Assembly (NCBI GenBank): GCA_019116865.1
Contig: DXAW01000028.1
Span: forward strand, 28,498 to 92,497
Direction: 5' to 3'
From: Candidatus Coprenecus stercoravium
GTDB lineage: Bacteria; Bacteroidota; Bacteroidia; Bacteroidales; UBA932
DNA: 64,000 bases
The notes under the pieces are model-generated. The model did not search any database. It was not told the origin of the DNA and saw only the letters and a program-made list of their open reading frames with translations. Numbering within the stretch: the first letter of the stretch is position 1; each line of letters starts with the position of its first letter. Positions 18,692 through 48,552 of this stretch are shown here, in pieces. Both the position numbers and the translations under genes were made by a program.

Positions 18692-20065
18692 TCAACGCCC
18701 TCCCGCCTTCTCGTCCAGCCCCAGCTCAGGATGACGGTCAGACGAGCGGCTCAGCAGCACAGCCGTAACAATCGCACACACTGACATGCCGATAAAGAAA
18801 TACTCGGCAACTACCGGAGACGATGCCCTGTCCATAATATGTCCCACGACTATGGGCACAGTAAAGAGGCCGATATTCTGTACCCAGTAAACCAATGAGA
18901 ATGCCGTACCCAGTTTATTCTCCGCAATGATTTTAGGCACCGATGGCCACATGGCCGCGGGAACCAGCGAATAGCCCAGACCGAGGACACCTATGGCAAT
19001 GAAGCCGAAGACCGGCAAGCCAGGTGCAAAAGCCACTGTCAGATGCGATAGAAGTATCATACCGGAACCCAGTATCATTATCTTCGTGCCGCGTCCCACC
19101 TTGTCCACGACAGCTCCGAACAGCGGAGCGAAAACCAGGGTGAAGAACGGTATCATGGCCACCATCACCGAGGCCACATTACTGTCTATACCGAATCTGG
19201 GCATCAGTATGGCCGTGGCGAACTTGCGGAACGACACCACGCAGCAGTAGAAAAATACGCAGAGCAGAGATATGAGCAGGAAATGACGGTTGGTAATCAC
19301 CTTTATCACGTCCCTGAAACGAAAACGGTCCTCTTCCTGCACCCCTCCGGCCTGAGCCGCCGGCTCTCCCTTTCTGTCGGCGCCGTAGTCCATCAGCACG
19401 AACAAGCCCCAAAGAAGCAGGGCGAAGAGCAATAACGTCAGTCCTACCACAGCAGGACGGGACGTCTCCGAGAACGGGATATAACCGTCCAGTTCCACAA
19501 TACGCGGTACAACTATAAGAGCCACGGCAGTGCCCAGACGGGCCAGAGCCAGCTGCAATCCCATGGCGAAAGCGATCTCCTTACCCTTGAACCACTTTGC
19601 GATAGCCCTGTTGACAGTCACCCCCGCTATCTCGCTGCCCAGGCCGAACATGGCGCACCCGGCGTAGGCCAGCGACAGAGACGGTTTGGCGGACACCCCG
19701 GAAAGCAATGCGTACAAACGGCTGCCGGCAAATCCCTCCGATATGGCATAGGTAATCAGCGCGGCACCGCCTACCATCAAGCCGACGAATATCGAGCCTG
19801 TAAGCCTAACACCCCAGCGGTCAAGCAACATTCCGCAGATTATCAGTCCGCCGAATATGCACAGCAGCGAATAGGCACTGCGGTAAAAGCCGTAATCGGT
19901 CATCGACCAGCCAAGGGCCACCATCGACGGATCCTCGAACTCCTGGTTGATAGTCGAGAATATGTCATCGAAAAAGTACGATGCGAACATCGGAAGGGCA
20001 AGACACAAAAGGGCCACCCATCGGATGGCCCCTTTATCTCTAAGCGTCTTAAGCAGTCTGCTCAT
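18692..20065 (-). CDS. MFS transporter, paralogue 1
   Basis: The 457-residue protein is very hydrophobic, with about 12 membrane segments and a mid-protein cytoplasmic loop (about 225-250). Conserved stretches such as NRAIAKWFKGKEIAFAMGLQ and YWVQNIGLFTVPIVVGHIMD are closely matched in the next gene, so the two are tandem paralogues. The family pumps small organic or inorganic solutes; the substrate cannot be inferred. It lies 9 nt downstream of paralogue 2 in one transcript. Confidence 0.9.
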   Translation of the reverse strand: MSRLLKTLRDKGAIRWVALLCLALPMFASYFFDDIFSTINQEFEDPSMVALGWSMTDYGFYRSAYSLLCIFGGLIICGMLLDRWGVRLTGSIFVGLMVGGAALITYAISEGFAGSRLYALLSGVSAKPSLSLAYAGCAMFGLGSEIAGVTVNRAIAKWFKGKEIAFAMGLQLALARLGTAVALIVVPRIVELDGYIPFSETSRPAVVGLTLLLFALLLWGLFVLMDYGADRKGEPAAQAGGVQEEDRFRFRDVIKVITNRHFLLISLLCVFFYCCVVSFRKFATAILMPRFGIDSNVASVMVAMIPFFTLVFAPLFGAVVDKVGRGTKIMILGSGMILLSHLTVAFAPGLPVFGFIAIGVLGLGYSLVPAAMWPSVPKIIAENKLGTAFSLVYWVQNIGLFTVPIVVGHIMDRASSPVVAEYFFIGMSVCAIVTAVLLSRSSDRHPELGLDEKAGGR

Positions 20066-20074
20066 AGCCGCAGA

Positions 20075-21451
20075 TTATTCTTCTTTCTTCACCACGTTCG
20101 GCAGCTCCAGACCGTATTTCTTCCTGCGGTCCTCGGCTTTGAGGAGGAAACTCAGGATAAATGCCAGAACACCGAAAGATGAGAATATTATCATAGGCGC
20201 AAGATATCCTCCTGTCGACTGGAGCACCTTGCCTATCAGCAGAGGCACAAGGCAGAGACCGATGTTCTGCACCCAGAAGATAAGGCAGTATGCGCTGCCG
20301 AGTATCTTCTCGTCGATAATCTTGGGCACCGAGGGCCACAGTGCGGCCGGCACGAGGGAGAAGCTGACACCGAGTACGGCAATCAGAGTAACTGCCAGCC
20401 ACTTATGAGGATATACAGGCAGGATGAATGCAAATGAAAGATGGCATACTATCATGATGATGGCTCCAAGCATCAGCATCGTGGCGCCCTTGCCCTTGCG
20501 ATCCAGGAAGATACCGAGCAGAGGCGTGAGGCACATGGCCAGAATGGGGAAGAAACTGAAGAGCTGGGAAGCCGTGGCATTGTCAACTCCGAGGGTCACC
20601 TCCAGATAGTTCGGTGCATATCTCTGGAAGGGGAATATGGCTGAATAATAAAGTACGCAGAGCAGGGCTACCAGCCAGAACATTTTGCTTGAGAATATCT
20701 TACCGAGATCCCTGAGATGGAACTCGTCCTCAGGGGATTTCTCCTCAGTGGCCATGCCGGCCGCCACGAGCTGCCTGTCGAACTTGGTATCCATCACCGA
20801 GAATACTATGTAGTTGATGAGTCCTATCAGAAGCAGCACCGTACAGAAACCGACGGGAGCCACCACAGAATGGTCGAACTTATTGGAGATGATAGGAGCC
20901 AGCCACATGACGGCGAACACACCGAGACGGGCGATAGCCATCTCAAGACCCATTGCCAGAGCCATTTCCTTGCCTTTAAACCACTTGGCAATGGACTTGG
21001 ACACTGTGGTACCGGCCATCTCGCAGCCGCAGCCGAAGACCATGAAACCGAGGGAAGCCATCTTGGCGCTGCCGGGCATTGCAGTCCACCAGCTGTCCAG
21101 CCAGGCGCACATGCCGGTGGTCTGGAACCATTCGCTTATACCTACGAACTTAATGCTTGCTCCGATTACCATAAGTGAGGCGGAGAGCACTCCGGTGAAA
21201 CGGATGCCCATCTTGTCCAGGATAATACCGGCCAGAATCAGGAAGCCGCACACATTGAGGATATACTCCGATGCCGCATAAGTTCCGAACGCTCCGCTGT
21301 CCCAGCCTCTGGCCGACTCCACCAGCGACTTCAGGGGAGACATCACGTCCACGAACATATATGCGAAAAACATCATCAGCGCGATGAGAATCAACGCGGC
21401 CCAACGCGCCACTACGCTGTCGTTGAGCATCTTTGCTACTTTTTGTTGCAT
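20075..21451 (-). CDS. MFS transporter, paralogue 2
   Basis: The 458-residue protein has about 12 membrane helices and the shared segments SKSIAKWFKGKEMALAMGLE and FWVQNIGLCLVPLLIGKVLQ with paralogue 1. It is the first gene of a two-gene unit preceded by a good Bacteroidota promoter (21483-21514). The tandem arrangement and equal length indicate gene duplication. They could work as a pair or transport related solutes; no enzyme or regulator next to them tells which. Confidence 0.9.
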   Translation of the reverse strand: MQQKVAKMLNDSVVARWAALILIALMMFFAYMFVDVMSPLKSLVESARGWDSGAFGTYAASEYILNVCGFLILAGIILDKMGIRFTGVLSASLMVIGASIKFVGISEWFQTTGMCAWLDSWWTAMPGSAKMASLGFMVFGCGCEMAGTTVSKSIAKWFKGKEMALAMGLEMAIARLGVFAVMWLAPIISNKFDHSVVAPVGFCTVLLLIGLINYIVFSVMDTKFDRQLVAAGMATEEKSPEDEFHLRDLGKIFSSKMFWLVALLCVLYYSAIFPFQRYAPNYLEVTLGVDNATASQLFSFFPILAMCLTPLLGIFLDRKGKGATMLMLGAIIMIVCHLSFAFILPVYPHKWLAVTLIAVLGVSFSLVPAALWPSVPKIIDEKILGSAYCLIFWVQNIGLCLVPLLIGKVLQSTGGYLAPMIIFSSFGVLAFILSFLLKAEDRRKKYGLELPNVVKKEE

Positions 21452-38647: not shown

Positions 38648-39601
38648 CTAGAACTCGAAGCCGAGTCCGAGTGTAAAGGTATTGGTCAAAGGAGAATTTT
38701 TGTCAGTTCCGATAAGATATGCGGCATTGAAAGATATACCGATAATCTTGAATCCAAGACCTACTGAGGCGTAGGAACCGTAGTACATCTTGTCCGCATC
38801 GCCATAGTGATAACCGGCGCTTACACGGAACATATCATTGTAGGCGTACTGCGCTCCCAGACCGGCGAAGAAAGAAGACTCCTCAAAAGTAAGTCCTCCC
38901 TCAAGATTCACAGCTACAGCATGCTTGTCCTCCTGACCGAAATGCTGCTCCGTACCCAGACCCAGCTTTACATTTGCAGGAAGCTGGTAGGCAGCAGCGC
39001 CATAGCTGATCTTCGAACCGATATTCGAGGCAGTCACACCTATCCGCATGAATTTCAAATCCACCAATGCGCCGAAATCAGCAGATACCGCACCGCCTTT
39101 CGCATCCTTGCTCAAAGCACTGTGTACATAGTTGACATTGGCGCCGAGAGAGAGGATAGGAAGGATACGGAAACCGAATCCGACACCGGCCTCAAGATCT
39201 ATGGGTGAGAACTGGCTTATATTCACTCCGTCCGACGTAATCGAAAGGGGCTGTCCGCCGAAATACCTCAGTCCGGCCGACACTGTCATGAATCTGGCAA
39301 CCCTGCCGTATCCTGCCACTGCCACCGCATTGAACGGACCAGGTGCGGCAGCCTTATCAGCCGAGGTGTTCCAAAGCGTGTAAGACGCACCAACCTGAAA
39401 TTTCTGCTCATCGAGAGCAGTGGAGGCAATATTGTTCCACATCGCATAGGGTGTGGACTCGAGAACTGTACCTGTTCCGGCCATGCCGAGCGCTACAGGA
39501 TCGGGATTGACCTCAAGAAAACCTGCAGGCTGAGCCTGGGCGGTAAAGGCAGCCGCTGATAACACGGCTGCCGCTATGATTGTTGTCTTAATACTTTTCA
39601 T
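38648..39601 (-). CDS. PorV/PorQ-family outer-membrane beta-barrel protein
   Basis: The 317-residue protein has a signal peptide (MKSIKTTIIAAAVLSAAAFTAQAQ), then GFLEVNPDPVALGMAGTGTV and YAMWNNIAST, which resemble the N-terminal region of PorV/PorQ proteins, and many alternating beta strands ending in aromatic GLGFEF. PorV shuttles T9SS cargo at the outer membrane and PorQ belongs to the surface attachment complex. This gene starts within the stop of the S8 protease gene (TAATG), and that protease carries a T9SS domain, so a role in its export or anchoring is plausible. It may be a dedicated paralogue and not the housekeeping PorV. Confidence 0.75.
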   Translation of the reverse strand: MKSIKTTIIAAAVLSAAAFTAQAQPAGFLEVNPDPVALGMAGTGTVLESTPYAMWNNIASTALDEQKFQVGASYTLWNTSADKAAAPGPFNAVAVAGYGRVARFMTVSAGLRYFGGQPLSITSDGVNISQFSPIDLEAGVGFGFRILPILSLGANVNYVHSALSKDAKGGAVSADFGALVDLKFMRIGVTASNIGSKISYGAAAYQLPANVKLGLGTEQHFGQEDKHAVAVNLEGGLTFEESSFFAGLGAQYAYNDMFRVSAGYHYGDADKMYYGSYASVGLGFKIIGISFNAAYLIGTDKNSPLTNTFTLGLGFEF

Positions 39602-42336
39602 TACAGTTTAGCTATATCTGTGGTTATTTTTGTATCACCGTAGGAAAGAGTAAGGGTGTACACACCTGCCGAAAGAGCGGAGAGATCAAGCGCATAAGGC
39701 TCGGATGACGATATATTCATATTATCCTCCTGTTTCTTGAGAGCTCCGCTGGCTGAACGAATCTCGACAGATGCGGCAGTAACGGTCTCAGGTGTCCGGA
39801 TATAAAGTGTATCCGTCACGGGATTGGGATAGAAGTCAGCCTGTGCGCCGCCTTCACGGATCGTCACGTCGAATGTGATGGAAGCCGTCTCGTCCATGGC
39901 GTCGTAGGCTGTGACTGTCACTGCTGTCTGTCCTGTTGCCAGAGGCGCGAGCACAAGAATATTCTCACGGAATGTTCCGTTTACAATTCCAGGCGTCTTG
40001 TAGGCAATTCTATAGGAAAGTTTGTCTCCATCACTGTCTTTGAAATATTGAGTAAGATCCATTTCATATGAGGAGCCGGGACTGATGGTCACTCCCTCAG
40101 GCTGTTTGATGACTTCGGGAACCGAGTTCTCAAGCACCTCGAAATTGACAGTCTTGACCGCTGTTCCTCCGAATCCGTCATCCAGTGTCACATCAATTGT
40201 ATGATTGCCTGTGCCGGCCTCCATACTTGAGATAGTGAGTCTGACTGTTGAGTCATTCAGCATTCTGACAGTAGCGACCCTACTCTCAGGTACTGTAGCG
40301 CTCAGTTTATGACCGTCCAAATCTCTAACACGGAAGTTAATATCCGCATTATTAGGATATTTTATGCTAGTATCCAAAGGCTCAGAAGGTACGAACTCCG
40401 GAAGAGTGTTGGGACCGGTGGTCACCTCCTGAACGGCACTGAATGTAGAGAGATTGCGTGCGAAATCGCAGGCTGCCGAAGTTATATAGTACTTGGTCTC
40501 GAACTCAAGTGCGCTGATAACACCGGAGAACTTATCACCCACGGCATAATCCGTCACCATCTCGCTCACATTGGGCAGAGCCACCACTGAAGCGGAATCG
40601 GTGATATCTATAGGGCTGGTCGAATAATACACATTGACGTATGTAGGATGCTCGTCATCCTCGTCCGCCGGAATTGTCAGGCTGTAATTGACGAAATTGG
40701 AGCGTACGGAAAGTTCCAGATCGGTGATGGGATCAGGACGCACGGTACTTGCAGTGGCAAGAGCACGCTGAACATCGACAAGACCATGACCCATAACATC
40801 GGAAGTGACATACTGGGAAATATCCCTTGCGGATGACTCCAGTATGTCCCTGAGCATATCGGCTGTGAAACCTTGCGAACCGAAATATGATACGAGAAGA
40901 GCGGCGGCTCCGGACACATGAGGACACGCCTGCGATGTACCCTCGTAAGCGCCGTAGCTGTCATTGGGTACAGTACTGAGCACCTCCTGCTGTTTGTCAC
41001 TGTCTCCTCCCGGAGCACATATATCAACCCAGTTGCCGAAGTTGGTATACCATGTCCTCTCGTAATCCCCTCCGATAGCTGCAACAGCTACACAAGGCTC
41101 GTATTCTGCCGGGAATCCCGTACCCCTATTATCATTACCTGCCGCAAAAATCACTATACCTCCGGCCATAGGGCCTACCTGATTGCCGCCGTCCCTGCCA
41201 TTTTCATCATAACCGGCATTCTTTATAAAGTAATCTATACCGGCCTTGTCCGAAGGTGCGATGGTATTGTAATGAGACTTGGCCGTGTAACCCCAGCTGT
41301 TCTGGCTGATAACAGCACCGTTGTCGGCAGACCACGCAATAGCCTCTCCTGTCGCGTTGGAAGAATTATCGCCCTCGAATATCTGGCAGGACATCAGCCT
41401 TACACCCTCAATGCCCTCTGCCGCATTGCCACCGGCAACACCTGTCACACCCTCACCGTTGTTTCCTACGGCACCGACAATACCGGCCACGTGCGTGCCG
41501 TGATCGTCAGCGGTCACCAGATATGTGTTATTGACAAAGTTACGGCCGTGGCTCTGTGAGGGATCCTTACTAATCTCCGGGTCCGGATTGACCCACATCG
41601 CATCCTTAAGGTCCTTATGCTGAAAATCTATACCGCCGTCGACAACGCCCACAATCACCTCTCTGCCATCTGTCGTATAACGGGTGCCGTAAATACCGCG
41701 CTTCCAGACAGGCAGGACATTGACATCCGAACCTGATCTGGCCAGACTGTTGAATGTACCGTCATTGTACATATGCCACTGCTGCGACAAATACGGGTCA
41801 TTAAAGAGTTCGGTGGCCGCATTGTTCCTCTGGGCAGGAGGAGTCTGAGTAACAGAACCTGGTACAAGAGTTCCTCCAAGATTTACGATTTCAGGACGGT
41901 ACTCCACAAACTCCACTCCCTCTATGCTTCCGAGCTCGTCACCGGCACGGGTCAGACCGATATTCTTGTCGAAATACACGTCATACCAAAGGTGAAGACC
42001 GGCTTTTCTTCTACGTGCCTCGAATTTGCCACCGTGGGGAAAAGTACGTTCCATCTTTGTGATGCCGATGGCTGCCAAATCGTTGACAGACTTGACACCG
42101 TCGACTGTCAGTCGGCCTATTGAGTCGCTCTGAAGACTGAGCTTTTCGGCCAGCTCCTCTGTAAGCCGCAGACGCACCATACCCTGTACATAACCGTCGG
42201 TAGGCACCTCACGTCCGTTAACGACAATTGTCTCGGACTTGTTCAGACGGTCCTCATCTATACTGCAGGAGGATACGGCGACAGAAACTGCCGCTGCTGC
42301 AAAAAGAACCGCCGCATGTTTGAACTTTCTATGCAT
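39601..42336 (-). CDS. Subtilisin-like (S8) protease with lipoprotein signal and T9SS C-terminal domain
   Basis: About 911 residues from the ATG at 42336; the track start at 42381 precedes the clear signal peptide MHRKFKHAAVLFAAAAVSV. A lipobox VSSC is followed by the acidic SIDED. After a propeptide-like region, the peptidase domain has the triad in VVDGG (D233), DDHGTHVAG (H279) and GTSQACPHVSG (S467), plus AAGNDN for the oxyanion asparagine. Fibronectin-like and Ig-like repeats follow, then a T9SS sorting domain with DFYPNPVTDTLYI and LSAGVYTLTL at the C-terminus. It is probably cell-surface and probably degrades proteins for the SusCD importer of the same locus. Substrate inferred only. 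Confidence 0.85.
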   Translation of the reverse strand: MHRKFKHAAVLFAAAAVSVAVSSCSIDEDRLNKSETIVVNGREVPTDGYVQGMVRLRLTEELAEKLSLQSDSIGRLTVDGVKSVNDLAAIGITKMERTFPHGGKFEARRRKAGLHLWYDVYFDKNIGLTRAGDELGSIEGVEFVEYRPEIVNLGGTLVPGSVTQTPPAQRNNAATELFNDPYLSQQWHMYNDGTFNSLARSGSDVNVLPVWKRGIYGTRYTTDGREVIVGVVDGGIDFQHKDLKDAMWVNPDPEISKDPSQSHGRNFVNNTYLVTADDHGTHVAGIVGAVGNNGEGVTGVAGGNAAEGIEGVRLMSCQIFEGDNSSNATGEAIAWSADNGAVISQNSWGYTAKSHYNTIAPSDKAGIDYFIKNAGYDENGRDGGNQVGPMAGGIVIFAAGNDNRGTGFPAEYEPCVAVAAIGGDYERTWYTNFGNWVDICAPGGDSDKQQEVLSTVPNDSYGAYEGTSQACPHVSGAAALLVSYFGSQGFTADMLRDILESSARDISQYVTSDVMGHGLVDVQRALATASTVRPDPITDLELSVRSNFVNYSLTIPADEDDEHPTYVNVYYSTSPIDITDSASVVALPNVSEMVTDYAVGDKFSGVISALEFETKYYITSAACDFARNLSTFSAVQEVTTGPNTLPEFVPSEPLDTSIKYPNNADINFRVRDLDGHKLSATVPESRVATVRMLNDSTVRLTISSMEAGTGNHTIDVTLDDGFGGTAVKTVNFEVLENSVPEVIKQPEGVTISPGSSYEMDLTQYFKDSDGDKLSYRIAYKTPGIVNGTFRENILVLAPLATGQTAVTVTAYDAMDETASITFDVTIREGGAQADFYPNPVTDTLYIRTPETVTAASVEIRSASGALKKQEDNMNISSSEPYALDLSALSAGVYTLTLSYGDTKITTDIAKL

Positions 42337-42358
42337 TGCTCTTCTGGTTTTTAATAAT

Positions 42359-43075
42359 TTATTGCTGTTGACCCTGAGCACAAAACATGAACAGAGCCTT
42401 TAAATCATCCTTGTTATCGAAATCCACGGCATGTTCCTTGACATAGCCCTTTATGGATTTTTTACTGGCTGGAAACAGCTTGGCAAAAGAAGACTGCCTG
42501 GCCGGATACAGCCGCTCGCCGTCAGTAAGGACATAGCCCGTAGACAGCGTGTAGTCGACTACTGTGGTAGCCTCAAAGCGTCTGGACGGATCCAGAGCCA
42601 TGACGTTTGCCGTAACTGCCGTAGAGGTAGGAGGCGATGTTATGCCTCCCGTGGACTTGTCTGAAGACTGATCCAGTTCTAGATGAGTCCTGAAGGCAAG
42701 CGACACGGGACCGAACACAGCGAGCTGCTGCACGAACTCCCCCGCCACCGGCACATATATCTCTTCTCCGGCGATAATTCTGTTGACAAACGCAAGCTTA
42801 GACATAAGGAGAGTATCACCATTGTCGGAGATGAACCTGATGGAATTATCCACCAGACACACGTTCACTACTCCTGACGACATCCCTCCGTCATTACGGT
42901 AAATATCGGCCTGTCTAAACTCAGGGAAAAGGTAGAGCACATCCCCGGGGAGTTTGTCCAAGAGATTCTCCCTGGTCCGGACTGTCACACTTCCCCGTCT
43001 CTCCTCCGCCGGCATAACGAACGCTGTAAGGGCTGAGACAGACAAAAATACCGCTATAGCTACTATTTTTTTCAC
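42359..43075 (-). CDS. Secreted protein of unknown function in the SusCD-protease locus
   Basis: The 238-residue protein starts with a signal peptide (MKKIVAIAVFLSVSALTAFV) cleaved probably near MPA-EE. The rest is a mixed alpha/beta protein with no motif I recognise. A Lys-rich segment (ASKKSIKGYVKEHAV) lies near the end, and the last residues are CAQGQQQ. It is 22 nt upstream of the protease start and 82 nt downstream of the lipoprotein gene, with a terminator-like hairpin in that gap. It may be periplasmic and assist the protease or its export; no function can be assigned. Confidence 0.7.
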   Translation of the reverse strand: MKKIVAIAVFLSVSALTAFVMPAEERRGSVTVRTRENLLDKLPGDVLYLFPEFRQADIYRNDGGMSSGVVNVCLVDNSIRFISDNGDTLLMSKLAFVNRIIAGEEIYVPVAGEFVQQLAVFGPVSLAFRTHLELDQSSDKSTGGITSPPTSTAVTANVMALDPSRRFEATTVVDYTLSTGYVLTDGERLYPARQSSFAKLFPASKKSIKGYVKEHAVDFDNKDDLKALFMFCAQGQQQ

Positions 43076-43085
43076 AATGATTTTT

Positions 43086-43126
43086 AATAAAAGGGAACCG
43101 TCACAATCTACACCGCGACGGTCCCC
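43086..43126 (-). terminator. Terminator or attenuator hairpin inside the SusCD-protease locus
   Basis: In the minus-strand RNA GGGGACCGUCGC (from 43126) pairs with GUGACGGUUCCC (to 43093) as 12 pairs with two G-U, followed by UUUUAUU. It lies between the lipoprotein gene and the secreted-protein gene and probably lowers or separates expression of the protease-porV half. Confidence 0.75.
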
Positions 43127-43157
43127 CTGTTAATACAATTCATAAAAGAACTTTCCG

Positions 43158-44003
43158 CTAGATTCTCCGACCGCTGGAGCCAGACTCGGCATTAATCTTA
43201 CCCGCATAGGAGTCTCCGTCAAGGAATCCTGCGAAGAATCCCTCAGGAACATAGATTTCATCATCGCTCCTGAACTCGAAGACTACTCCCTCCTTGAGGT
43301 AGTTCTGCTGTTCTTCCTCATTATAGGTGAACGAGAAGAGCTGCCATACGCGTCCTGAGGCATCAGTATAGGACTGACCGGCAGGAGCAGTAAGGGTATT
43401 GATGCTCCTTGTCGCCTTGAACTCATCTGTCTTCTCACCCATGATGCTGATATAATAAACAGTAGGATCTGAAGGATCAGCTGTTATCTGCATGCTCTGG
43501 TTAGGATCCCCGCTGAAGTAGAAGGTTCCCTCCATATTATACTGAGCTACTGACTCGAACACATATGTCGCAGTAGAAGGCTCAGCAACATGGTCACCGG
43601 AAATACTGAACTCAATGGTGAGCTCCTGAATAACCCTGTACTCAGGCAGACGGATTTCGAATGAAGTCACGGAATCGGCATCAGGCTCATCTGTCCAGGG
43701 GCCTACATAGACTGTACTGCTTGTCAGAATTACCGTACTGTCCGGAACGTTGTTGAACTCAGCGCCGCCGACATATGTTCCGGAGACACTCACAATCTCA
43801 ACCTCTACCTTAGTAGCGGTCTGGCTCTTGGTCACCTGACGCAGGGGAATATCGAAGTACTCGCCGATAATATCCAGAGTGTCAAGAGTCTCGACAAACT
43901 GAACCTGCGTACTGCCGGTGGCCGGAGTAAGGTCTGTCTTGTCGCAGGAAGCGAGAAGCCCGAGCAGACCTGCCGCAATTATGAAAAATTTAATCTGTTT
44001 CAT
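43158..44003 (-). CDS. Surface lipoprotein in SusE/SusF position
   Basis: The 281-residue protein has a lipoprotein signal (MKQIKFFIIAAGLLGLLASC, lipobox LASC) followed by DKTDLTP. The mature part is beta-rich with two apparent beta-sandwich-like halves and no catalytic motif. It follows susD by 17 nt. In SusCD loci this slot usually codes for an outer-membrane binding lipoprotein; that role is inferred from position. I do not recognise the specific family. Confidence 0.75.
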   Translation of the reverse strand: MKQIKFFIIAAGLLGLLASCDKTDLTPATGSTQVQFVETLDTLDIIGEYFDIPLRQVTKSQTATKVEVEIVSVSGTYVGGAEFNNVPDSTVILTSSTVYVGPWTDEPDADSVTSFEIRLPEYRVIQELTIEFSISGDHVAEPSTATYVFESVAQYNMEGTFYFSGDPNQSMQITADPSDPTVYYISIMGEKTDEFKATRSINTLTAPAGQSYTDASGRVWQLFSFTYNEEEQQNYLKEGVVFEFRSDDEIYVPEGFFAGFLDGDSYAGKINAESGSSGRRI

Positions 44004-44020
44004 CTCTTAATGTTTAACTG

Positions 44021-45550
44021 TTAGTACTGTTCGTTCTGCTGACCAGCCATATTGGGGTTGGTGTCAAGCTCGGTCTGAGGAATCGGCCAAACAAACCTGA
44101 AATCATCCGCATAAGCTACGGTACCGGTCATGGCATTATGAGTATACATAATGCTGGGAGCCTGCTCTTCTCCTCTTACCACATCCGCACCCCATCTCTT
44201 GAGGTCCCAGAGACGGAAACCTTCACCGATAAGCTCACGCACACGCTCATCCCTGATCTGGGAACGAAGGTCGGAAACTGCATAAGAGGGACTTGTATAA
44301 CCGGGAATACGGGCTGTCCTGAGTGTCTGGAGCGTAGTAGCTGCATCAGAGGTGTTGCCGCTCTCAAGATAAGCCTCAGCAAGATTCAGATATACCTCCG
44401 CGATACGGAAAGGTTTGTTCTTATGCAGGTAGTTGGACTGAGGAGACTGCATTCCGCTGGGGAAGAGAGCAGGGTTTCCGGGGAACTTGTTGAACAGATA
44501 TACTGAGTCAGACAAAGAATTGGAAACCGCCTTCTCATACTTGAGGAACTGAGCCGTACGGAGGTCGTCGGGCCATTCCAGGAACAGGTCTACTATAGCC
44601 TGGGTAGGAATAAACGCAGGCTGGTAATTTTCCTGGGAAATCTGGTAGTTGATATAACCCGGGTCATAAGAGGTGGCCTGGTTGTTGGACTCATTGCTTG
44701 CATCCATCATCATCAGGGTCTCGCGGCCTGAGTCATTGACCCACATATTGTTGAAATCCGTAGCATTGTTCACGAGGGTATACCTGCTGAGAATAGGCGA
44801 AGCATACTCGATCACTTTCTGATAATCTTTCATAGTCAGATATACTCTGGCTCTGAAAGCGGATACAACATCAGCTGTAAGATACATGCTGCCTACCTGT
44901 CCGGGAGTGGTTATAAGCTGCTCGGCCAGGTCAAGGTCCTCGTTGATACCCTCATAGGTCTCGGAGAGATAAGGTCTGGCAGGATAGTCATCCTTGTTGG
45001 CTGTAGGATTATAGTCCCTTACATAGGGTACTCCCAGTACTGTTCCGGCTGAATTGGCATCATATACCTTGCAGTATCTGTAAGCAAGCTCATAGTGGCA
45101 GTAAGCCCTGAAGAAATAAGCCTCGCCGAGAATAAGGTTGAGCTGGTCTATGTCGTCATCCGAGAATGTCTCAGGAGTGTTGTTGAGAACTCTCTCCAGA
45201 TTCTCGATAAGGAAGTTGGCACTGGCCACTACAGAGTAGCAGCTGGCCCAGATGCTCTCGATTCCGGCCTCGGAAGAGGTGAAGTCCCAACGAAAGAAAG
45301 CACCGAAGTTGTTACCGTAGCTCGATGTCGGCTGGAAGAGGTCACTCTGTATCTCCGCATCAGCGACAAAGGCTCCTGCGCAGATGGAACGGAAGTTGAC
45401 ATACATACCGCGCCTCAGCCTCTCAGCATCGTCCATCGATGTCAGAGCGTTGTCGGCATCAATGGATCCGGGCTGACGGAGGTCCATGGTGCAGCTGAAG
45501 GCAGCTGCCATTACAGACAATATTAAAGTTGCTTTAAATAATTTTCTCAT
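44021..45550 (-). CDS. RagB/SusD-family substrate-binding lipoprotein
   Basis: The 509-residue protein has a lipoprotein signal (MRKLFKATLILSVMAAAFSC), the SusD-like N-terminal region (IWASCYSVVASANFLIENLERV; EAYFFRAYCHYELAYRYCKVYD), TPR-like helices and the C-terminal segment IRDERVRELIGEGFRLWDLKRW typical of RagB/SusD. It forms the lid over the SusC barrel and captures substrate. Located 11 nt after susC. Confidence 0.95.
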   Translation of the reverse strand: MRKLFKATLILSVMAAAFSCTMDLRQPGSIDADNALTSMDDAERLRRGMYVNFRSICAGAFVADAEIQSDLFQPTSSYGNNFGAFFRWDFTSSEAGIESIWASCYSVVASANFLIENLERVLNNTPETFSDDDIDQLNLILGEAYFFRAYCHYELAYRYCKVYDANSAGTVLGVPYVRDYNPTANKDDYPARPYLSETYEGINEDLDLAEQLITTPGQVGSMYLTADVVSAFRARVYLTMKDYQKVIEYASPILSRYTLVNNATDFNNMWVNDSGRETLMMMDASNESNNQATSYDPGYINYQISQENYQPAFIPTQAIVDLFLEWPDDLRTAQFLKYEKAVSNSLSDSVYLFNKFPGNPALFPSGMQSPQSNYLHKNKPFRIAEVYLNLAEAYLESGNTSDAATTLQTLRTARIPGYTSPSYAVSDLRSQIRDERVRELIGEGFRLWDLKRWGADVVRGEEQAPSIMYTHNAMTGTVAYADDFRFVWPIPQTELDTNPNMAGQQNEQY

Positions 45551-45561
45551 TGCTGTCTATG

Positions 45562-48552
45562 TTAAAATGTTAATTCGACTCCTACACTGAACTCCCTTGT
45601 GTTGGGATAACCTCCCAATGTCACGTTGGAGTCAACCTCAGGATCCCATCCGGTATATCCGGTCACTGTGAAGAGGTTCCTGGCGATTGCATAGATTCTG
45701 GCACCTCCGAGGAAACCGGTCTTCTGCATCCAGCGCTCGGGGAGGCTGTAAGATACCTGGAGGTTCTTCAGACGGAGGAATGAGGCGTTCTCAAGAAGAG
45801 TATCGTCATCAATCTGTCTGGTGGAGTTGATGGAAGGTATGTCAGTTACCTGACCGGGCTCTCTCCAGATATTGAGCATGTCTGTGGACATGTTGAAGAA
45901 GGGGAACTCAGTAGGGTTGGTGAGGAACCAGCGGTCATTGTTGATCAGGTAGTTGTTGGCAACCCATGTGAAGTCTGCTCCGATGTACAGTCCCTTGTAC
46001 TGGAAGTTGAGCTGGAGACCACCTGCCCAAGGCGCATACCTCTGCTTGCCGGTCATCACCATATCATCCTGAGAGAAGACTTTGGTCTTGTTTCCGTTCT
46101 TGTCATACCACATCTGCATACCGTCACGAGGGTCGACACCTGCGGAACGCACCAGATAGTACTCTCCCCATGAGTGTCCTACCTCCATTCTCAGACCTGT
46201 ACCTGCAAGTGTGTAGCTGTCACGGCCGTCGAACAGGGCTGTCACCTCGTTCTTGTTGTAGTTGAAGTTGGTCTTCACGTTGAAGTAGATATCCCTTGTG
46301 TTGATGATATCAAAGCTCAAGTCAACATCGACACCACGGTTGTACATGTCACCGATGTTACCTACACCTGAAGAATAACCTGTAGTATAGGAATAAGGGA
46401 TGGACATCAACATGTCGCGGGTGTTCTTGTTATAGAACTCTACGCTTATTCCCAAGAAGTTCCACAGACGGGTGGTCAGACCGACATTGAGGGTCTCCAC
46501 AGTCTCCCATGTGAGGTCAGGGTTTGCGGCTGAGGCTACTCCCCATGCTGTACCGCCGTCATAAATCTGGGCGTATGCTCCTACCTGAGCATATGACAGG
46601 TAGTTGTCGATACCTGAGTTACCGGTTGTACCGTAGCTGGCCTTGAAACGGAGGTCGTTGATCCAGGAAGCACCCTGCATCCAGCGCTCACGCTTGAGGT
46701 CCCACATGAAACCTACAGAGTAGAAGTTAGCGTATTTCTTGTTGACACCGAAGAGTGAGGAACCGTCGATACGCCATGAGGCATCGATATAATATCTCTC
46801 GTCAAAGTCATAGGAGAGACGTGCGAATGCTGAGTTGTAGTTGATCTCAGACTTGCCCCATGTGGGTATGTCTGCCTGAAGACCGAATCCGAGGTAAGGC
46901 TGACGTGCGTCTGTCTGACCGTTGGAACCTGCGTCAAATGACTCGGAGTCTTCGATGATGGACTCATGACCGAGCAGGATGGCGAAGTGATTGCGCTCAG
47001 CCACTGCGAATCTGTACTCAGCTGTATTGGTGAATGTCAAGGCATAGTAACGTCCGAATGACTCATAAGCCTGAGGAGTCTCGGAAGAGAAAGGCCATGG
47101 ATCGGAGGCGAGAACCTTTCCTGATGTACGGGTATCATATCCCTCGATGCTCTGCTGAGCTTTCAGGGTCAGACCCTTAATCGGGGTAATCTGCTGATAC
47201 GTGCTGGCATTGAGACGTACTGTGGTGTAAAGACGGGGCTGAATCTCAGCCAGATATTTAGGGTTGTACACCTGGATTGCATCCCAGTAGTCAAGCTCAC
47301 CGCCTTCATAGTCAACATATGCCTCGTTGGTATTGTCGTCCACCTTGAGGTCATAAGGAGACAACCATGAAGGCAGGTTGGATGAAGCGAACATCACGTT
47401 ACCGAATGAGTTGTTACCGCTGCCTTGATAAGGAGTGGTACTGTACTCCTGGTATGTCATACCGATGTTCATACCCATTTTCAACCAGTCGTTGACCTGA
47501 GTGTTCACATTTGTACGGATATTATACCTGGTCATCTCGGAATCCAGTGCGATACCGTTCTGGTCGAATACTCCGAGAGAGATGTAATAGTCAGACTTGG
47601 CTGTGGCACCTGACACAGATGCGTCAAGGCTCCATACAGGAGCTGCGTTGTCGAAGAAATGCCTTGTCCAGTCTGTGTTGATACCGAGCTCCTGAGACAG
47701 GTACTGATAATCGGAGTACTCATAGCTGTCTCCGTAAATCATATCCTGGAAATCGAACCACTGCTCACCGCTCATGAGGTTCATCCTGTTACGGGCCATC
47801 TGAGAGACACCGTACTGAGCCCTTACCGACACTACAGGTTTCTCTCCTGACGCTCCCCTCTTGGTGGTGATGTAGATGACACCGTTTGCAGCACGGGAAC
47901 CGTAGATAGCTGTAGAAGAAGCGTCCTTCATGACCACAACGTTCTCGATATCGTTACTGTTCAGTGATGTGAACACTGATGCCGATACCGGGGAACCATC
48001 GAGAATGAACAGAGGAGTGGTATCGGCGTTGATGGAGCTGACACCACGCAGACGCATGGAAACTGATGCTGAAGGCTCACCTGAAGACGAGAACACCTGC
48101 AGACCGGACACCTGACCCTGAAGAGCGTCACCGGCGTTGGCTGTAGGCCTGTTGGCGATTACCTTCTTGTTGACAGTCGAAGCGGAACCTACCACCGAGG
48201 ATATCTTTCTGGCAGAACCGTAACCTACGACGATCACGTCGTCCAGCATCTCCGCCGACATCTCCAGTTCGACATCAATAGCACTTCTGCCATTGACAGG
48301 AACCTCAAGCGTAGTGTAACCTAAGAAGCTGACTTCCAGGACTCCGTCAGAAGGCACTGAAAGGGTGTAGGCACCCATTCCGTCAGTCAGTGCCCAGACA
48401 GAGGAATTACCCTTGAGCAACACGGTCGCACCGGCTATTCCTTCTCCTGTCGAAGCATCAGTAACAGTACCTGACACTGTGATGTCCTGCGCATATACAG
48501 ACGCAGTCACCGCAAGCAGCAGACCTGTTAGAAATAGTCTGATTTTTTTCAT
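45562..48552 (-). CDS. SusC/RagA-family TonB-dependent outer-membrane importer
   Basis: The 996-residue protein has a signal peptide (to about AQ, residue 22), a CarboxypepD_reg-like domain (ITVSGTVTDASTGEGIAGAT), the TonB-box region DDVIVVGYG, a plug domain (LQGQVSGLQVFSS; SSINADTTPLFILDGSPV; SSTAIYGSRAANGVIYITTK) and a 22-strand barrel ending EFSVGVELTF. With SusD it imports oligomeric nutrients using TonB energy. No regulator or glycoside hydrolase is adjacent; a protease is downstream, which hints at peptides, as for RagAB of Porphyromonas gingivalis. Confidence 0.96.
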   Translation of the reverse strand: MKKIRLFLTGLLLAVTASVYAQDITVSGTVTDASTGEGIAGATVLLKGNSSVWALTDGMGAYTLSVPSDGVLEVSFLGYTTLEVPVNGRSAIDVELEMSAEMLDDVIVVGYGSARKISSVVGSASTVNKKVIANRPTANAGDALQGQVSGLQVFSSSGEPSASVSMRLRGVSSINADTTPLFILDGSPVSASVFTSLNSNDIENVVVMKDASSTAIYGSRAANGVIYITTKRGASGEKPVVSVRAQYGVSQMARNRMNLMSGEQWFDFQDMIYGDSYEYSDYQYLSQELGINTDWTRHFFDNAAPVWSLDASVSGATAKSDYYISLGVFDQNGIALDSEMTRYNIRTNVNTQVNDWLKMGMNIGMTYQEYSTTPYQGSGNNSFGNVMFASSNLPSWLSPYDLKVDDNTNEAYVDYEGGELDYWDAIQVYNPKYLAEIQPRLYTTVRLNASTYQQITPIKGLTLKAQQSIEGYDTRTSGKVLASDPWPFSSETPQAYESFGRYYALTFTNTAEYRFAVAERNHFAILLGHESIIEDSESFDAGSNGQTDARQPYLGFGLQADIPTWGKSEINYNSAFARLSYDFDERYYIDASWRIDGSSLFGVNKKYANFYSVGFMWDLKRERWMQGASWINDLRFKASYGTTGNSGIDNYLSYAQVGAYAQIYDGGTAWGVASAANPDLTWETVETLNVGLTTRLWNFLGISVEFYNKNTRDMLMSIPYSYTTGYSSGVGNIGDMYNRGVDVDLSFDIINTRDIYFNVKTNFNYNKNEVTALFDGRDSYTLAGTGLRMEVGHSWGEYYLVRSAGVDPRDGMQMWYDKNGNKTKVFSQDDMVMTGKQRYAPWAGGLQLNFQYKGLYIGADFTWVANNYLINNDRWFLTNPTEFPFFNMSTDMLNIWREPGQVTDIPSINSTRQIDDDTLLENASFLRLKNLQVSYSLPERWMQKTGFLGGARIYAIARNLFTVTGYTGWDPEVDSNVTLGGYPNTREFSVGVELTF

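Follow-up and report, generated by a model that had tools for sequence, protein, structure and literature searches.

The six-gene locus

Six genes on the minus strand of a 'Candidatus Coprenecus' metagenome-assembled genome (MAG; order Bacteroidales) bring together a SusC–SusD importer (SusCD), a lipoprotein (LP3), a secreted protein (SP4), a subtilase of family S8 and an outer-membrane barrel of the PorV/PorQ family. They lie in a 64,000-nucleotide stretch of contig DXAW01000028.1 (assembly GCA_019116865.1), referred to here as the window. The draft genome spans 1.83 Mb at about 82% completeness, and NCBI taxonomy lists Coprenecus as Rikenellaceae incertae sedis within the Bacteroidales. All six open reading frames (ORFs) are intact and collinear, with the order and coordinates given in a preliminary description of this DNA, and Pfam and NCBIfam families support the naming of SusC, SusD, S8 and the barrel. 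Unnoticed in that description, the protease combines a lipoprotein signal with the type A C-terminal domain (CTD) of the type IX secretion system (T9SS). The features are as follows.

45562–48552, minus strand: SusC, RagA-like TonB-dependent importer, 996 aa (TIGR04056, 722 bits)
45925–45942, minus strand: NNDRWF, SusC residues 871–876, aligned with the RagA substrate-site motif NNDRYF
44021–45550, minus strand: SusD/RagB-like lipoprotein lid, 509 aa (PF07980 and PF14322)
43158–44003, minus strand: LP3 lipoprotein, no family over cut-off; structure prediction gives a Calx-beta/Ig-like N-terminal domain
42359–43075, minus strand: SP4 secreted protein, no Pfam/NCBIfam family and no fold match
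39601–42381, minus strand: S8 lipoprotein protease, 926 aa as listed (Peptidase_S8_N, Peptidase_S8, Big_9, T9SS type A sorting domain)
42265–42267, minus strand: S8 lipobox cysteine, residue 39 of the listed ORF, invariant in 14/14 aligned S8 proteins
39604–39831, minus strand: T9SS type A CTD of S8, residues 851–926 (PF18962 and TIGR04183 over cut-off)
38648–39601, minus strand: PorV/PorQ-family outer-membrane barrel of the S8-linked type, 317 aa (NF033709, 163 bits, cut-off 90)

Intergenic gaps are small (11, 17 and 82 nt), and the S8 and PorV frames share 1 nt, which makes a single transcript likely. Translation of S8 probably starts at the ATG at 42336 rather than the GTG at 42381, since its relatives begin there and the overlap with the preceding gene then vanishes. 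The locus sits among housekeeping genes, with rpoC/rpoB on one side and a pyrophosphatase gene on the other. As first described, the flanks checked hold no carbohydrate-active enzyme (CAZyme), sigma/anti-sigma pair or hybrid sensor. A glycan-active enzyme, as a polysaccharide utilization locus would have, is likewise absent from the six genes and these flanks, though a SusCD pair is present.

Recurrence of the cassette and its importer

Relatives within the genus, together with three loci outside it (L083–L085), were found by scanning contigs with a PorV-like alignment, and further families by an order-wide search; codes beginning with G, L and f denote genomes, loci or lineages, and families. 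Most of the genomes compared are drafts, and several are probably or certainly MAGs. Besides the window, eleven Coprenecus genomes carry SusC or SusD near an S8–PorV pair. The complete six-gene order, from rpoC to the pyrophosphatase gene, is repeated in G006, G012 and G015, and in G007 as far as the contig end. Two CTD-bearing S8 lipoproteins stand in tandem with a single PorV-like gene in G004 and G001 (L040 and L041), where SP4 is absent between LP3 and S8. The SusCD half and the S8–PorV half are divergent in G008 and G010, and a more distant SusCD adjoins S8 and PorV in G014, G011 and G016.

Outside the genus, SusC–SusD–lipoprotein–S8–PorV is found at L083 (which also appears as G023) and L085, and the same order from SusD onward at L084, where the contig ends; the PorV-like barrels of these three loci are 32–34% identical to that of the window. 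Family f106 (L184 and L185, in G132 and G231) has an eight-gene cassette with a SusC-like protein, SusD, lipoproteins carrying BNR, Calx-beta and F5/8C domains, S8 and PorV. Its SusC is unrecognized by Pfam and was assigned by its scores against the window SusC (87 and 106 bits). LP3 and SP4, the two genes without a family, are not constant between cassettes. The linkage of SusCD, protease and PorV-like barrel, usually with a lipoprotein, does reach beyond close relatives, so the refuting outcome named in the preliminary description, an order confined to close relatives, did not arise. Because the linkage recurs in other lineages (L083–L085 and f106) and with exchanged SusCD types, it exceeds chance. 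The divergent halves in G008 and G010, and the S8–CTD–PorV sets that occur without SusCD in families f3, f87 and f74, would fit a reading in which S8–PorV and SusCD lie side by side but share no function, with the protease serving for example in surface maturation. We consider this highly improbable, given that the linkage survives rearrangement and at least two SusCD types in the clade, with a third in f106. CTD-less S8 lipoproteins also lie beside SusCD at L194 and L195 (G283 and G207), with other lipoproteins nearby, and possibly belong to a wider class of SusCD–protease loci.

Among solved structures, RagA is by far the best relative of the window SusC (621 bits, the next different SusC in the PDB scoring 386 bits), and RagB is narrowly that of its SusD. 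The likeness to RagAB of Porphyromonas gingivalis, to which the preliminary description had appealed, extends to the substrate site. Residues N893–F898 of RagA form a substrate-binding site that is conserved in all RagA types, absent in SusC, and probably of importance for protein rather than sugar substrates (PMC11817032). Our motif call is based on that study. At this site the RagA letters in our alignment are NNDRYF, against NNDRWF in the window; the motif is kept in 7/7 aligned RagA-like cassette SusCs, once as NNDKYF. The window genome holds no other SusC over the TIGR04056 cut-off, which makes the SusCD of this locus its only one over cut-off. We infer that the pair imports peptides rather than glycans, with less assurance for cassettes in which SusC is not RagA-like.

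By sequence the window SusC falls in the subfamily of RagA, with which it shares the substrate-site motif, and the window SusD, less clearly, in that of RagB; proteolytic nutrition is assumed for both systems. They differ in what feeds them. In P. gingivalis, RagAB is supplied by gingipains (PMC11817032), themselves exported by the T9SS (PMC7712824), whereas the window set encodes a single lipoprotein subtilase of its own in a genome where SprA was not found.

Some cassettes carry a second SusC type, which is nearest a non-RagA SusC (408 versus 353 bits). This affinity, the BNR and F5/8C lipoproteins of the f106 cassettes, and the glycan import typical of characterized SusCD pairs would all suit a SusCD that takes up glycans or glycopeptides while the protease strips protein off a glycoprotein substrate. 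With a RagA-like SusC that bears the substrate-site motif, and six genes and checked flanks devoid of CAZymes, the window makes such a role distinctly unlikely.

The two cassette SusC types were compared using the window SusC and those of L038, L039, L044, L083 and L085. Their first 100 residues, comprising the signal peptide and a carboxypeptidase-regulatory-like domain, are 57–74% identical between types, and much of the barrel is only about 25% identical, a pattern that looks like barrel exchange behind a retained N-terminal domain.

The lipoprotein protease, its sorting domain and a PorV relative

Across 14 aligned S8 sequences the catalytic residues D248, H294 and S483 are invariant, and the lipobox cysteine is mostly followed by acidic residues. 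Their CTDs share an invariant lysine at the last-but-one residue. Type A CTDs have an almost invariant lysine near the end that contacts PorV (PMC10994853), and the S8 lysine is likely the same residue.

None of the 19 Coprenecus genomes yielded SprA, and neither did those of L083, L084 and L085. The same search was positive in G019 and in 16/16 sampled genomes of other families, which indicates that the model works. PorU gave no match over cut-off in Coprenecus; its only matches there were weak and fell at the CTDs of S8. Since SprA was not found, export of S8 by the SprA route is unavailable as far as searched. The CTD inventory is restricted: the S8 CTD is the only one over cut-off in the window genome, and 27/27 CTDs over the Pfam cut-off in 17 SprA-less CTD-bearing genomes sit, by coordinates, on this S8 family. 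The SprA-less G002, G003, G013, G017, G018, G020, G021 and G022, in which no S8 bears a CTD, hold no CTD over cut-off, and the SprA-bearing G019 and G025 have 54 and 101 CTD matches.

The barrel meets the wide PorV/PorQ-family model NF033709 and scores 118 bits against NF033710, the model for PorV proper, where the cut-off is 250. The S8-linked PorV relatives examined are 302–344 aa long, and the aligned ones are missing an insertion of about 45 residues that the four canonical PorVs aligned with them carry. In a tree, the window barrel clusters separately from canonical PorV (support 98/93), together with the barrels of L083–L085, G147 and G203. Several long branches, and further S8-linked PorVs placed in other parts of the tree, leave room for more than one origin of the S8–PorV pairing. 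Judged by sequence, the barrel is a short PorV relative and not PorV proper. The preliminary description was right to call it a T9SS-family protein as regards family; it could not serve an ordinary T9SS here, because SprA and PorU were not found in Coprenecus.

In Coprenecus, protease and barrel co-occur. Of the 19 genomes, 13 contain S8 as well as PorV and 4 contain neither; G009 has S8 only and G018 has PorV only (Fisher p = 0.006, an approximate value given that the genomes are related, the drafts incomplete and relatedness uncorrected). The G018 locus is decaying (L197, G018:C33:1-6046): S8 is missing, and the PorV-like gene that comes directly after SP4 is interrupted by an in-frame TAA. 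Adjacency of S8, CTD and PorV is also seen in f3, f87, f74 and f106. SprA is present in some of the genomes with S8–PorV pairs in these families, which means that the pair is not exclusive to SprA-less organisms; within f106, SprA was found in G231 and not in G132, a member of the same genus.

Among the CTD-bearing S8 genes of the order whose flanks could be read, 25 adjoin a PorV-family gene and about a third have none next to them; counted by lineage, seven show the adjacency and one CTD-bearing lineage does not. The CTD model, built from Coprenecus sequences, missed CTD-like tails in 4/8 S8 relatives, so the comparison set comprises the four clearly CTD-less S8 lipoproteins, and 0/4 adjoin a PorV-family gene. 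The difference (p about 0.02 by protein and 0.01 by lineage, with relatedness uncorrected) is suggestive only.

These results bear on whether the CTD docks the protease at all. A protein-uptake unit could operate without docking, with the CTD a relic or stability domain and the barrel serving otherwise, for example as a small-molecule channel. CTD-bearing S8 proteins that lack a PorV neighbour, in f113 and in Coprenecus copies beside ppk, would fit such an arrangement, as would G009, which bears one of these ppk-side copies and in which no PorV was found. We nevertheless regard it as unlikely: in SprA-less genomes CTDs are gone from all proteins except the S8 protease, the adjacency holds in seven lineages versus one and in none of the four CTD-less lipoproteins, and in G018, where S8 is lost, PorV is damaged. 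That CTD and PorV form a surface-docking module independent of the T9SS translocon, which holds a protease delivered by the lipoprotein route beside the SusCD importer, is a tentative proposal to which we give somewhat less than even odds.

Further CTD-bearing S8 copies were seen elsewhere. In family f113, which supplies the main counterexample, S8 lipoproteins form tandem arrays at L188 (G238:C8:1228000-1247500), where there are at least six, and at L190 (G139). Their CTD-like tails are divergent, no PorV lies nearby, and SprA was not found in their genomes. At L043, L046 and L047 (G009, G012 and G014) a second CTD-bearing S8 lipoprotein, also with no PorV nearby, lies upstream of what sequence inspection suggests are polyphosphate kinase (ppk) and exopolyphosphatase genes.

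A candidate protein-utilization locus

We favour, with a probability of roughly 0.6, a protein-utilization locus in which a surface lipoprotein subtilase, its CTD probably docked on the PorV-like barrel, feeds a RagAB-like importer. The layout would be that of a polysaccharide utilization locus with a protease replacing the glycan enzymes. Made as a lipoprotein, the S8 subtilase would take the lipoprotein route to the cell surface, where its T9SS-type CTD would probably dock it on the adjacent barrel. There it would cut proteins, and the RagAB-like SusCD would import the resulting oligopeptides, with LP3 probably acting as a surface binding or scaffold lipoprotein. Docking, peptide import and the surface location of the protease are steps that we infer.

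Several observations weigh against this proposal. The SusD match to RagB is a narrow one (107 bits, the next SusD in the PDB scoring 94 bits), and the second cassette SusC type is without the substrate-site motif. Protease and barrel pair without SusCD in f3, f87 and f74, and CTD-bearing S8 proteins occur with no PorV nearby in the f113 arrays, the Coprenecus copies near ppk and L036. The T9SS search, moreover, was confined to SprA and PorU.

The general idea of SusCD plus peptidase is not new, because such loci have already been proposed for oligopeptide uptake in Flavobacterium collinsii (PMC10132118; see also Petrimonas mucosa, PMC7768429). There too, peptidase genes adjoin a SusCD pair. 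The peptidases belong to other families (S9, S37, M24 and M43; M60 and S15), and the available portions of these two papers mention no CTD/PorV pair. Cargo of the T9SS with type A CTDs resembles the window protease in the CTD itself, in the lysine near its end and in the presence of a PorV-family barrel; the window differs in its lipoprotein signal, in the shorter PorV relative encoded beside its presumed partner, and in that no SprA or PorU was found. CTD-based anchoring has a precedent in CTD proteins of type B, which attach to PorP-like barrels (PMC9143113). The idea of a surface protein anchored by its CTD on a dedicated barrel is the same, whereas the window has a type A CTD and a barrel of the PorV rather than PorP family, and no T9SS translocon was found. 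SusCD utilisomes (PMC7618045) likewise encode a surface enzyme, a binding lipoprotein and SusCD together. The window set has a protease for the glycan enzyme and an extra barrel. In a limited search of the open-access literature, a lipoprotein protease with a type A CTD and a PorV relative, where SprA is not found, appeared to be undescribed.

If this reading is correct, uncultured gut Bacteroidales own a self-contained protein-utilization counterpart of polysaccharide loci, built in the window genome around its sole SusCD over cut-off. They would also provide a natural setting in which a CTD–PorV pair persists where SprA and PorU were not found. The pair could then be tested as an anchor in its own right, apart from secretion, and recognition would be separable from secretion.

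The pyrophosphatase-side flank also encodes glutamate racemase, a TlpA-like protein, glutamate dehydrogenase, 2-oxoacid:ferredoxin oxidoreductase, BamA, uppS and NAD kinase; the dehydrogenase and the oxidoreductase are compatible, weakly, with amino acid use. Two MFS transporters (18692–21451) were considered as peptide transporters and met no NCBIfam cut-off. SusCD as an accessory of BAM found no support in the available portion of the Bacteroidota BAM paper. In the LP3 model (pLDDT 83) a second beta domain comes after the Calx-beta/Ig-like one, and the predicted fold matches Calx-beta domains as well as two functionally uncharacterized Bacteroides proteins. The SP4 model (pLDDT 81) gave no fold match at E ≤ 0.001; this secreted family persists in most Coprenecus loci, rearranged ones included.

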